DNA of 64,000 bases from Leptolyngbya subtilissima AS-A7 (lineage in GTDB: Bacteria > Cyanobacteriota > Cyanobacteriia > Phormidesmidales > Phormidesmidaceae), in NCBI RefSeq assembly GCF_039962255.1, contig NZ_JAMPKY010000005.1, positions 372,001 through 436,000 of the forward strand, written 5' to 3'. Below are positions 36,124-39,299 of the stretch, piece after piece. The notes beneath the pieces were generated by a model. The model was not told the origin of the DNA, made no database searches, and saw only the letters and a program-made list of their open reading frames with translations. The number at the start of each line of letters is the position of its first letter. The stretch's first letter is position 1. Both the position numbers and the translations under genes were made by a program.

Positions 36124-37428
36124 CTAGTCTTTGGCCCCAGCGCTAGTCTCACCAGGCTTTTCGGGGCTAGCTGGGGCTGAACCAGGCTGTTGATCGAGGC
36201 GCAGGGCCTGGGCCAAGGCCGATCGCGCCTGGGCTTTTTGCACCAGCGGGTCGAGCTGCTCTACCGATAGCCCACTTAACAGGCTGAGTTCTTGGCGGTT
36301 TAGCCCCCTCAGCAGCATCTCAACGCACCAGGTGGCACGGGCCTGCTCAACGCCAATTGGTTCGCCAGTGGGCGACATGATGCCGGTTGTTACCTCGGCC
36401 CATAGCTGCCGCACCCTCAAGGGCGTAATCGGCTGATCGTCTGGCCCTAAAAACATGGCCGATGAAGCATCGCTACGGCTTTTGAGCCAGCGGGTAAGCG
36501 GGTTTTTGATGTAGGTGCCGTAGCGCCGACCCATGATCCACTGATTGAGGGGCACCTGTCGATGCTGAGGACCAACCAGCAAAATATGCTGGCTGCTGTC
36601 GTAAAGGGCGCTAGTGCGGCTGAGCAGCGGCACCTCTGCTGCCGCTACCCCGGCCCCCAGCAGCACATAGATCAGGGCATGGGTCTGGTTGCCAGCCTTA
36701 CGGGCCGCTTGCATAATTTCATGGACTAGGGGGGCGGGTAGGTCGCTCCAGCTCTCTGTATTGGGGGGAGTAAGGCCAGGCTGGGCTGGACCAATAGTGG
36801 CCCCATCGGTCTGGGGGTGCAGGCTGAGCAACCAGCTAACGACACTATCGATAAAAGCGCTCCGGCTGGGCCACAGACCGTGGAATTCTGCGCTGCCGTC
36901 ACCGGCACCACTAGTGGTGCCGTCGATCGCAGCATAGCCCAGCAGCAGCGCCATCACTAGCCCTGCCACTTCCTCAGGAGGGAGGCCGACGGCTTCCCCC
37001 GGAGCCAGATGCGCTTCCAGGTACTCAGCAATGAAGTTGCGAATGGTTTGCAGGCCCCGCCCCATGGCCTGGCTATTGTCTGCGGAAAACTGCCCGGCTT
37101 CACCAATTACCGATCGCACCAGCTCGGAGAGCTGATCGAGGGTAGCCAAGCACTGGCCCAAAAACTCTCTCAAAGCCTGGTCGATAGGATCTTGGGCTAA
37201 AGCCGCCAGATCAAAACTATGGTCTGGGCCAGACAACACCTCAGCCTCAGTCATGACCGCTGCAAGCAAGCCATGCTTGCTACCAAACTGGCGAAACAGC
37301 GTGACCTCGTTAACTCCAGCTAAATCAGCCACCTGCCGGGTAGTAGTAGTGCCTACTCCCTGGTTAGAAAATAGCTGAAACGCCGCATCCACTAGACGCT
37401 GTCGAGCTGATCTGCGCTGATCTGCCAT
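36124..37428 (-). CDS. TetR regulator fused to a tyrosine-recombinase-like domain
   Basis: The N-terminal 50 or so residues are a TetR helix-turn-helix (ARQRLVDAAFQLFSNQGVGTTTTRQVADLAGVNEVTLFRQFGSKHGLL), followed by a helical TetR-type core up to about 200. From about residue 225 the sequence changes: LVHEIMQAARKAGNQTHALIYVLLGAGVAAAEVPLL, then PLNQWIMGRRYGTYIKNPLTRWL, and TPLRVRQLWAEVTTG followed by ARATWCVEMLLRGLNRQELSLLSGLS. This matches the catalytic core of a tyrosine recombinase, but the first Arg (in the usual TGLRISEL) and the His of HDLRH are missing. It is therefore likely a non-catalytic DNA-binding or dimerising part. It is divergent from the desaturase, with a palindromic operator between them. 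Confidence 0.8.
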   Translation of the reverse strand: MADQRRSARQRLVDAAFQLFSNQGVGTTTTRQVADLAGVNEVTLFRQFGSKHGLLAAVMTEAEVLSGPDHSFDLAALAQDPIDQALREFLGQCLATLDQLSELVRSVIGEAGQFSADNSQAMGRGLQTIRNFIAEYLEAHLAPGEAVGLPPEEVAGLVMALLLGYAAIDGTTSGAGDGSAEFHGLWPSRSAFIDSVVSWLLSLHPQTDGATIGPAQPGLTPPNTESWSDLPAPLVHEIMQAARKAGNQTHALIYVLLGAGVAAAEVPLLSRTSALYDSSQHILLVGPQHRQVPLNQWIMGRRYGTYIKNPLTRWLKSRSDASSAMFLGPDDQPITPLRVRQLWAEVTTGIMSPTGEPIGVEQARATWCVEMLLRGLNRQELSLLSGLSVEQLDPLVQKAQARSALAQALRLDQQPGSAPASPEKPGETSAGAKD

Positions 37429-37440
37429 GGCAAAAAGAAA

Positions 37441-37456
37441 GCAACACTTGCATTTT
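37441..37456. promoter_or_regulatory. Half-site related to the 37481 operator
   Basis: ACACTTGCATTTT at 37444-37456 repeats the right half (ACACTTGCAAA) of the perfect palindrome 37481-37501. It lies just upstream of the TetR-fusion start codon. It may be a second binding site. Confidence 0.45.
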
Positions 37457-37480
37457 ACCAGAGAAGTTTGTTAGGATTGA

Positions 37481-37501
37481 TTTGCAAGCGACACTTGCAA
37501 A
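37481..37501. promoter_or_regulatory. Perfect operator palindrome between the TetR fusion and desaturase
   Basis: TTTGCAAG and CTTGCAAA are perfect 8-bp inverted repeats with a 5-bp spacer (CGACA). The site lies in the 183-nt intergenic region of the divergent genes, about 53 nt from the regulator start and 110 nt from the desaturase start. This is the expected form of a TetR-type operator. Confidence 0.75.
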
Positions 37502-37611: not shown

Positions 37612-38469
37612 ATGACAACACTACTGAAACAAGCCCCAGAGAAACGGGGAATCAAAGGCTTAGATTGGACACTGGTTGGCTTTTTAACTGCCATTCACGG
37701 CGTTGCCCTGCTGGCCCCGTGGTTCTTTTCGTGGTCGGCCTTAGGGGTGATGGTGGCGCTGCACTGGTTGTTTGGCAGCATCGGCATTTGTTTGGGCTAT
37801 CACCGACTGCTCACCCATCGCAGTTTGCAGGTGCCCCAGTGGTTAGAGTACGTCATTGCAACCATTGGCGCAATGGCGCTTCAGGGTGGCCCAATCTTTT
37901 GGGTGGCGGGGCATCGTCAGCATCACCTCTACACCGAGGATGCTGAAAAGGATCCCTATGCCGCCAGTCGTGGGTTTTGGTGGAGCCACATGTTGTGGAT
38001 GGTGTACCGCAATCCGGCAGTCTTTAATGGCCAGATTTACCGTCGCTATGCTCCAGATATTGCCCGTGACCCTTACTATCGCTGGCTCGATCGCAACTTT
38101 TTACTGTTGCAAGTGCCGGTTGCGATCGCCCTCTTTGCCCTTGGCGGTTGGTCTTTTGTAATCTACGGCGGCTTTCTCAGAATTGCACTTCTATGGCACT
38201 CGACCTGGCTGATCAACTCGGCAACCCACATGTGGGGCAAGCGCCGCTTTCATATTGAAGACAGCTCGGGCAATCTATGGTGGACAGCGCTGCTCACCTA
38301 CGGCGAAGGTTGGCACAATAACCACCACGCGTTTCCTAACGTGGCCCCGGCTGGCTGGCGCTGGTGGGAAGTCGATGTCACCTGGTATGCCATTCTGTTG
38401 TTAGAAAAGCTGGGTTTAGCTCGTCGCGTGGTGCGCCCCCCGGCAGAGGCTGTAGCTCAGGGGCGATAA
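37612..38469 (+). CDS. desC: Membrane acyl-lipid/acyl-CoA desaturase (delta-9 type)
   Basis: The 285-residue protein has the three histidine boxes of membrane desaturases: HRLLTH at 64-69, HRQHH at 101-105 and HNNHH at 235-239. Four hydrophobic segments (for example LTAIHGVALLAPWFF and VALHWLFGSIGICLGYH) place it in the membrane with the di-iron site on the cytosolic face. It introduces the first double bond into saturated fatty acids of membrane lipids. The length and box spacing agree with cyanobacterial DesC. It is divergent from the TetR fusion, whose operator lies in its promoter, so the two are likely a regulator-target pair. AAAGGACA precedes the ATG. Confidence 0.92.
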   Translation: MTTLLKQAPEKRGIKGLDWTLVGFLTAIHGVALLAPWFFSWSALGVMVALHWLFGSIGICLGYHRLLTHRSLQVPQWLEYVIATIGAMALQGGPIFWVAGHRQHHLYTEDAEKDPYAASRGFWWSHMLWMVYRNPAVFNGQIYRRYAPDIARDPYYRWLDRNFLLLQVPVAIALFALGGWSFVIYGGFLRIALLWHSTWLINSATHMWGKRRFHIEDSSGNLWWTALLTYGEGWHNNHHAFPNVAPAGWRWWEVDVTWYAILLLEKLGLARRVVRPPAEAVAQGR

Positions 38470-38615
38470 GTCAGCGGTTTACAAGTAACACGAATGAAAT
38501 GTCAGCGTCTGGGGTTTACTTAAGCCCTAGGCGCTGAACAGTACTTGCACTCGGATGATTGTTTTTGTTGGTTTTTGTGCAACCTAGTTTTTGTACGAGC
38601 TTATATCCATCAAGA

Positions 38616-39299
38616 ATGATGTCTGAAGACAATCAAGGCGTTGATTTAAGTGTCAATGAAATAAACAGAGTTTTGCTTATTGACTTGGAAAACTGCCCCG
38701 ATCAGATTCATCAGCTAAAAGACAATCTAGAGAAATTTTCAAAAGTTGTAATTTGCTACGCTAAGACTGGAGCCAAAATCCCTCTTGACTGGCTAATTCC
38801 ATTAAGTGCAACGGTAAGCTCAAGCAAGCTGAAAATTTTTAAGATGACAAATAGCGGCAAAAATGCAGCAGACTTTGGCATATGCTTTTTCGCTGGAGTT
38901 TTGATGCAAGAGTTGCCAAAAGAGACACATTTCTCGATTGTGTCTAATGACACTGATTTAGACCACGTTGTGAATTTGCTGAAAAGTCAAGGCCGCTCGG
39001 CAGAGCGCATAGGCATGAAAAAAGAAGGAAAGGAAGTCACTAGGACTGAGTCTGAAACCGTGGATTCAGTTTTGATATCTCCGGTTGAAACATATTGCAA
39101 ACACCTTATAACCTACAGTAAAAATAGGCCTGCAAAGAAAGATACTCTGCTGAATGGTATTAAAAACAAATTCAAGGAATCTCCTAAATCAGCGGCGGAA
39201 GTATTTAGGCTCTTGACGGTTCAAGGCGCAGTAACCCTTGTTGAAAATAAGGTTTCCTATAACAACAAGAAGATTCAAGAGTTGGCAAACCAGTCTTAA
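38616..39299 (+). CDS. NYN/PIN-like domain protein with C-terminal winged helix, A+T-rich
   Basis: The likely start is ATG 38616 (or 38619). The 227-residue product has an NYN-like nuclease core: VLLIDLENCP with the first Asp and Asn, ICYAKTGAKIPLDW, SGKNAADFGICFFAG and FSIVSNDTDLDHVVNLLKSQGRSAERIG with the SNDTDLD acid pair. All four acidic positions needed for a metal site are present. The tail (YCKHLITYSKNRPAKKDTLLNGIKNKF...LLTVQGAVTLVENKVSY) looks like a small winged helix. The gene is markedly more A+T-rich than its neighbours and has atypical codon use, which suggests recent transfer. It stands alone; the function could be RNA processing or defence. Confidence 0.8.
   Translation: MMSEDNQGVDLSVNEINRVLLIDLENCPDQIHQLKDNLEKFSKVVICYAKTGAKIPLDWLIPLSATVSSSKLKIFKMTNSGKNAADFGICFFAGVLMQELPKETHFSIVSNDTDLDHVVNLLKSQGRSAERIGMKKEGKEVTRTESETVDSVLISPVETYCKHLITYSKNRPAKKDTLLNGIKNKFKESPKSAAEVFRLLTVQGAVTLVENKVSYNNKKIQELANQS

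Follow-up and report, generated by a model that had tools for sequence, protein, structure and literature searches.

A probable TetR-family desaturase regulator of cyanobacteria with a repurposed tyrosine-recombinase-like domain and twin predicted operators

A TetR-family regulator fused to a tyrosine-recombinase-like domain lies divergently to a fatty acid desaturase gene in a 64,000-nucleotide stretch of the Leptolyngbya subtilissima AS-A7 genome (contig NZ_JAMPKY010000005.1, positions 372,001 to 436,000; hereafter the window), and it probably represses both the desC2-type desaturase gene and its own gene from twin operators, with the catalytically dead recombinase domain serving as an accessory module. 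Sequence comparison and structure prediction support the domain assignments, the loss of the catalytic set, purifying selection, the pairing with the desaturase and the two conserved sites; the DNA binding, repression, ligand, promoter position and role of the recombinase-like domain described below are what we infer. The parts of the locus are listed in Table 1. Directly downstream of the desaturase gene, a PIN7/NYN-type nuclease-like protein is encoded from a TTG start (38559-39299, forward strand; Pfam PIN7, 9.7e-21).

Table 1. Coordinates of the regulator-desaturase locus (positions within the window)
Feature	Position	Strand	Basis
TetR regulator fused to tyrosine-recombinase-like domain, 434 aa	36124..37428	-	ORF; TetR_N; single-frame in 79/80 relatives
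TetR helix-turn-helix, residues 1-60	37249..37428	-	Pfam TetR_N, residues 12-58, E 9.1e-13
TetR ligand-binding/dimerisation domain, residues 61-205, acidic, more variable	36814..37248	-	Sub-threshold TetR_C_7; model matches FadR, DesT, KstR
Tyrosine-recombinase-like catalytic domain without catalytic set, residues 226-414 (predicted)	36187..36753	-	Profile and fold matches
Basic family-specific conserved segment RQVPxNQWIMGKRYGSYxxNPLTxWLKxRxD, residues 290-320	36469..36561	-	Most invariant block of the domain
Predicted distal operator, perfect inverted repeat TTTGCAAG-N5-CTTGCAAA	37481..37501	.	Conserved in relatives
Predicted proximal operator AGAAAGCAACACTTGCA, centre 47 bp from distal operator	37436..37452	.	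Conserved in relatives
Inter-operator stretch with short conserved motif TTGYTAR, candidate promoter region	37453..37480	.	Consensus of 57 and 75 intergenic cores; promoter role putative
Fatty acid desaturase, 285 aa, DesC2-type (sn-2 specific delta-9) histidine boxes	37612..38469	+	Pfam FA_desaturase 4.3e-20; H-box 3

A pattern scan of 84,980 species genomes retrieved 316 relatives of the regulator, and statements about loci rest on the best 80 of these. Both halves of the regulator lie in a single reading frame at 79 of the 80 loci, isolates included, and a homologue of the window's desaturase lies divergently beside it at all 80, so that the homologue search finds both the fusion and its neighbour conserved. 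All of the best 80 are titled cyanobacterial with the exception of one contig labelled Candidatus Gracilibacteria (L110), which carries a cyanobacterial regulator-desaturase pair and is probably mis-binned, and the fusion was found across many cyanobacterial families. Nodosilinea nodulosa PCC 7104 (L054) and Chlorogloeopsis fritschii PCC 6912 (L089) are among the strains with the regulator-desaturase pair. An even sample of 386 genomes of the phylum contained the recombinase-like domain at E<=2.4e-44 in 41 genomes, each time inside an open frame whose length (399-496 aa) suits the fusion, while the other seven matches were weak and lay within Xer-like recombinases of another class; at most eight first-look candidates were scored per genome, and absences in this sample are therefore weak. 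The TetR part reached E<=1e-30 in 196 of 388 genomes of the class. Seven of the 25 genomes of the window's own genus have weak TetR matches only, which indicates that the TetR-desaturase system is dispensable.

The regulator also occurs on a plasmid. A plasmid search matched 62 records, one of which (from Gloeothece citriformis) covers at least 80% of the query; among the 20 plasmid matches listed, the other 19 match the TetR half only. The G. citriformis PCC 7424 plasmid pP742403 (L151) bears both regulator and desaturase, the former annotated simply as a TetR/AcrR regulator, near a gene for an orange-carotenoid-protein N-terminal domain and an ssl1498-family light-harvesting-like gene, and the region is possibly a mobile membrane/photoprotection cassette.

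The initial annotation recognized a TetR helix-turn-helix at the N-terminus of the regulator and a desaturase as its divergent neighbour, and both identifications hold. The TetR_N match scores 48.2 bits against a Pfam cut-off of 24. Conservation and residue counts refer to 64 aligned proteins, i.e., the window protein and 63 of the 80 named loci, the 17 loci that failed a strict motif having been left out. The commonest residue of each column has an average share of 0.79 in the helix-turn-helix and of 0.58 in the more variable ligand domain, whose net charge is -15 in the window protein. Residues ~5-205 of the full-length model (pLDDT of the TetR part 52-91 by block of ten) align to TetR structures with Z scores of 14-15.6, which points to an all-helical TetR ligand-binding/dimerisation domain. 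FadR, DesT and KstR are among the top fold matches of this model, a likeness that is common to many TetR proteins because TetR folds match widely.

The C-terminal half was recognized through its relatives. Searches of Pfam, NCBIfam and the PDB with the window sequence alone returned nothing convincing for this half, and the window protein by itself has no match to the Pfam family Phage_integrase. A profile of 23 relatives matched the archaeal XerC-like recombinase 4a8e in the PDB (E 2.2e-6) and the Tn1549 integrase (E 0.0086), and five of 23 members matched the PHROGs integrase phrog_1 (best 4.2e-7). For the structure model and the member searches, the window protein was aligned with 54 of the 63 motif-passing loci, near copies being excluded. 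Phage_integrase was found in 45 of these 55 members at a lax limit of E<=10 (best 5.1e-12); when ten chosen full-length relatives were compared with the curated cut-off of this family, six passed, two fell just short and two had no match. The AlphaFold2 model of the domain built from the 55 sequences has a mean pLDDT of 94.6 and a pTM of 0.91, and all 38 of its Foldseek matches in the PDB at E<=0.001 are tyrosine recombinases (best XerA, 3.1e-7). VIA-align superimposes XerA with a Z score of 20.0 (rmsd 3.3 over 175 residues) and includes among its matches the phage repressors MrpR/YopR (Z 11.7) and SroF of phi3T (Z 13.1), the latter a repressor by its PDB title. A viral structure library gave 44 matches at E<=0.001, the named ones being integrases, recombinases and DNA_BRE_C/recombinase-domain proteins. 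Profile-profile comparison with hhalign gave a probability of 92% over 128 columns against seven Xer-like proteins of another class of the phylum (picked because the domain profile had matched them) and 80% over 141 columns against a mixed set including two integrases from the window's genome, versus 9% over 12 columns against a TetR control. Residues ~226-414 are thus predicted, from sequence and model alike, to adopt the catalytic-domain fold of Xer-type tyrosine recombinases, as the initial annotation had proposed, although the domain is slightly longer than the limits first given (about residues 225-400).

Compared with Xer-type recombinases (XerA, the archaeal XerC-like protein and the Xer-like proteins of another class), with which it shares fold and sequence similarity, the domain stands behind a TetR part, lacks the active-site set and contains a conserved insert of ~9 residues after the RxVP strand. 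No core-binding domain is found in the window protein, and TetR occupies its place there and in 79 of 80 relatives. The hairpin region WIMGKRYG (residues 297-304), which is unaligned in 4a8e, is family-specific and among the most invariant parts, and a variable linker of ~20 residues precedes the domain. The domain has no match in 50,697 phage records searched with tblastn. Several other identities were set aside as chance matches beside the fold result: RecC (E 0.021), the carbamoyl-phosphate synthetase oligomerisation domain (11 of 55 members, best 0.0019), Sigma70_r4_2 (2 of 55, best 1.9e-4) and a Toxofilin-like match (1 of 23, 0.0044). Among the sequences met in the analysis, the nearest active-enzyme relatives are a well-conserved set of Xer-like recombinases (L305-L311), whose active sites look intact and which come from seven genomes of a single family belonging to another class of the phylum. 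Elsewhere in the window's genome, two tyrosine recombinase genes with overlapping open frames lie head to tail (L031/L032, C2:228088-229879), an arrangement known from Tn554-like elements.

The catalytic positions, assigned by sequence alignment to Xer proteins and not by structural geometry, demonstrate the extent to which the active site has been dismantled. Arg I (position 262) is Arg in one of the 64 aligned proteins and Ala in the window; His II (361) is His in none and Glu in 47, as in the window; position 364 (Arg II) holds Arg in 24 proteins and Gln in 40; at position 387 (His III), 25 proteins have Trp, 23 Leu and 13 Cys, with Leu in the window; and the nucleophile position (395) is occupied by Tyr in 39, by Leu in 22 and by Phe in 3, with Leu in the window's genus. 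The catalytic Lys region is unconserved, and the complete R-K-H-R-H/W-Y set occurs in none of the 64 proteins. The initial statement that the key Arg and His are missing is accordingly right for Arg I, His II and His III and wrong for Arg II, since Arg364 of the QARATW motif is present in the window's genus and is the sole residue of the set kept by the window protein. Active enzymes such as Cre use Trp at the His III position. The MrpR paper likewise lists H/W there, in the portion available (PMC10516654). Residual strand cutting, which would place an enzyme at the locus, could draw on the Tyr, Arg II and Trp still found in 39, 24 and 25 proteins, respectively, but it is highly improbable in view of the absence of a complete set from every aligned protein, the near-complete loss of Arg I, the complete loss of His II, the unconserved Lys region and the replacement of Tyr by Leu in the window's genus. 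The domain is best regarded, from its residues, as catalytically dead.

Loss of catalysis has not been accompanied by loss of constraint. The dN/dS of the domain is 0.045-0.12 against six close relatives (dS is saturated against a seventh), and the commonest residue of each column averages a share of 0.69, versus the 0.58 of the TetR ligand domain. The segment at residues 290-320 carries a net charge of +4 to +6 in the 64 proteins (mean +5.7), although over its full length the domain is almost neutral (mean +2.4). The domain had been described as decayed, a term that does not suit a region that appears dead in catalysis yet repurposed and under purifying selection. The reading frame is broken between the TetR and recombinase-like parts in L082, L221, L222 and L225, through either sequencing error or real splitting, and these cases could be taken to mean that the tail arose from faulty assembly or gene calling, or that it is a passenger in decay; the single frame at 79 of 80 loci, isolates among them, together with the low dN/dS and the column conservation, refutes both readings, whose probability is negligible.

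The partner gene is equally constant in type. H-box 3 of the window's desaturase, YGEGWHNNHHX2PX5GX2WWE, equals the motif of clade delta9-1 as given in the accessible part of PMC2593844, and the DesC2-type H-box 3 occurs in 76 of 80 relatives; H-box 1 of the window enzyme ends in HRS, versus HKSF in the table of that paper. Chi et al. (2008, PMC2593844) presume that clade delta9-1 acts on the sn-2 position, as Nostoc DesC2 does, and the split between DesC1 and DesC2 is described in the available text of PMC4390868. The histidine boxes therefore predict a DesC2-type sn-2 delta-9 acyl-lipid desaturase. The window's genome encodes two further desaturase homologues, one with a clade-2 (DesC1-type) box.

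The perfect palindrome between the two genes lies exactly where the initial annotation placed it. As evidence by itself it is unremarkable, the window containing six exact 8-5-8 inverted repeats versus 1.1 +/- 1.0 in a first-order random model (40 runs); it is taken as real because it is conserved in relatives. A second, proximal site, with one arm imperfect in the window's genus, had been missed, and both conserved palindromes near the target gene are predicted to be operators. Allowing up to two mismatches, two or more sites are present in 174 of 182 distinct divergent tetR-desaturase intergenic regions, and in 148 of these 174 regions the centres of the two sites closest to tetR are separated by 46-48 bp, with spacing varying in some families (42 in f55, 51-52 in f23). 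These site counts refer to distinct intergenic sequences in divergent arrangement, six non-divergent loci being left out. A strict pattern of the operator pair, which is blind to spacings over 51 and misses most of the window's genus (imperfect proximal arm), matched 121 of 388 genomes of the class, compared with one of 388 for a reversed-pattern control; the sole match in the window's genus (G023) combines the distal site with a chance site upstream. At all 30 loci fetched by the operator-pair pattern alone, the pair lies between tetR and desaturase. In family f13 (G045, G441), where tetR and desaturase stand in tandem, the pair follows the tetR stop and precedes the desaturase, so that the desaturase looks like the constant target. 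The 5.66 Mb genome of the window's strain contains one exact operator and five sites with one mismatch, versus two sites for the reversed control, and a genome-wide regulon in this genome was discarded, as the exact operator occurs only at the tetR-desaturase locus. Neither a sigma-70 consensus promoter nor a terminator was found; the TTGYTAR motif reads towards the desaturase.

Versions of the regulator that consist of the TetR part only adjoin the same desaturase in seven f5 genomes, in G056 (a single-contig genome) and in G561. The recognition region of these proteins is nearly unchanged and their operator is the same, which points to recognition of the operator by the TetR part alone and weakens the initial claim of two DNA-binding modules. 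Two sites are found in 168 of 169 distinct divergent regions with the recombinase-like domain (a class that includes a few broken-frame copies), the exception being G539 with one operator, whereas seven of nine TetR-only genomes, six of the seven being of one genus, have a single operator; of the others, G056 has a pair spaced 47 bp apart and G480 a weak second site. Genomes with two sites and no visible domain in which the region is cut by contig ends (G558, G589, G031) or which are uncertain (G488) were excluded from the TetR-only class. The association of the domain with a second operator fits a bridging role and is confounded by descent, and the two are not strictly tied, since G056 has two operators without the domain and G539 has the domain with one. 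Strict spacing was likewise rejected as proof of recombinase-driven assembly, given the spacing of 47 in TetR-only G056 and the variation between families. In a tree built on the TetR part from 38 fused and 8 unfused proteins plus 4 outgroup rows (15 fused rows and 1 outgroup row being absent), TetR-only rows fall in three separate places and the deep order is unresolved; early fusion and loss of the domain in f5 are both compatible with it.

In the preferred reading, TetR dimers would bind two copies of ATGCAAGT-NNN-ACTTGCAT through the helix-turn-helix. These operators would lie on either side of the shared promoter region or overlap with it, and the dimers would come off when the TetR pocket takes up a ligand reflecting lipid status (a fatty acid or an acyl carrier), as in DesT, MadR and FadR. 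A lipid-status repressor of the desaturase and of itself is suggested by the divergent pairing, the twin sites in the shared start region and the TetR likeness to FadR, DesT and KstR. The acyl carrier generally attributed to cyanobacteria is acyl-ACP and not acyl-CoA, and the ligand may therefore be another one. Repression is assumed here; the TetR regulator may instead act as an activator. The recombinase-like module would most likely serve to link or stabilize the two TetR dimers at the twin operators, either through protein-protein contact of the recombinase kind or through additional contact with DNA. A spacing of 47 bp corresponds to ~4.5 turns, which would put two plain dimers on opposite faces of the helix, and domains on a variable linker of ~20 residues could join them. 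A more elaborate form, in which two TetR dimers place four dead recombinase domains side by side to form a recombinase-like tetramer, a non-cutting synapse that wraps or loops the shared promoter, would be in line with the unequal operator counts of fused and TetR-only versions and with a spacing of 46-47 bp that sets two plain dimers about half a turn apart; it is considered quite unlikely, and if true, repression would rely on that part of a recombination machinery which serves assembly.

The domain could instead recognize a DNA sequence of its own, between the operators or next to them, and so form a second DNA-binding module comparable to MrpR. MrpR/YopR provides an example of a dead recombinase fold acting as a repressor (PMC10516654, available part) and, with SroF, is among the fold matches; the basic invariant segment at 290-320 and the TTGYTAR motif conserved between the operators also count in favour of this explanation. 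Against it, the protein has no core-binding domain to complete the recombinase DNA clamp and has lost Arg I, Lys and His II; the motif between the operators is short and could belong to a promoter, and the operator persists in TetR-only relatives. The dismantled DNA-phosphate pocket and the near-neutral charge of the domain also speak against tight DNA binding, and this explanation seems rather unlikely. The high invariance of the WIMGKRYG hairpin, together with the photoprotection-type genes adjoining the Gloeothece plasmid copy, would also suit a protein-protein or ligand-sensing module without a DNA role (e.g., one receiving a signal from lipid or photosynthetic metabolism), an unlikely alternative to the joining of TetR dimers.

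Known systems resemble the regulator in one half or the other. DesT (P. aeruginosa), MadR (mycobacteria) and FadR (B. subtilis) have the TetR fold in common with it; DesT and MadR are not known to have more than the TetR parts, whereas the window regulator has an added recombinase-like domain and a cyanobacterial DesC2-type enzyme as its partner. DesT and MadR control desaturase genes and answer to acyl-CoA, as described in the accessible portion of PMC8872791. MrpR, the master repressor of prophage SPbeta, has a tyrosine recombinase fold that has lost its catalytic residues and acts as a transcription repressor (PMC10516654, in the part available); it belongs to a phage, has a core-binding domain of its own and lacks a TetR part, whereas in the window protein the domain is fused to TetR and encoded next to a metabolic gene. 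The open-access literature, as far as searched, yielded no description of the fusion, and PMC11448079, in its accessible part, is unrelated to it.

To our knowledge, the control of the ratio of saturated to unsaturated membrane fatty acids in cyanobacteria, beyond temperature sensing, is poorly resolved. The present locus appears to supply a desaturase regulator of the TetR family that has gained a repurposed recombinase domain, a conserved fusion that appears undescribed in the open-access literature, and the regulator, its target enzyme and its binding sites are predicted jointly across many cyanobacterial families. Natural deletions of the domain (G056, G561 and the f5 family) and tandem rearrangements of the genes (f13) offer ready controls. 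The locus would also be a case in which a recombinase domain was taken up by a regulator of bacterial metabolism and not by a phage regulator, and because the partner is the DesC2-type enzyme and not the DesC1-type copy of the genome, the regulator may be a dedicated switch for the sn-2 position.
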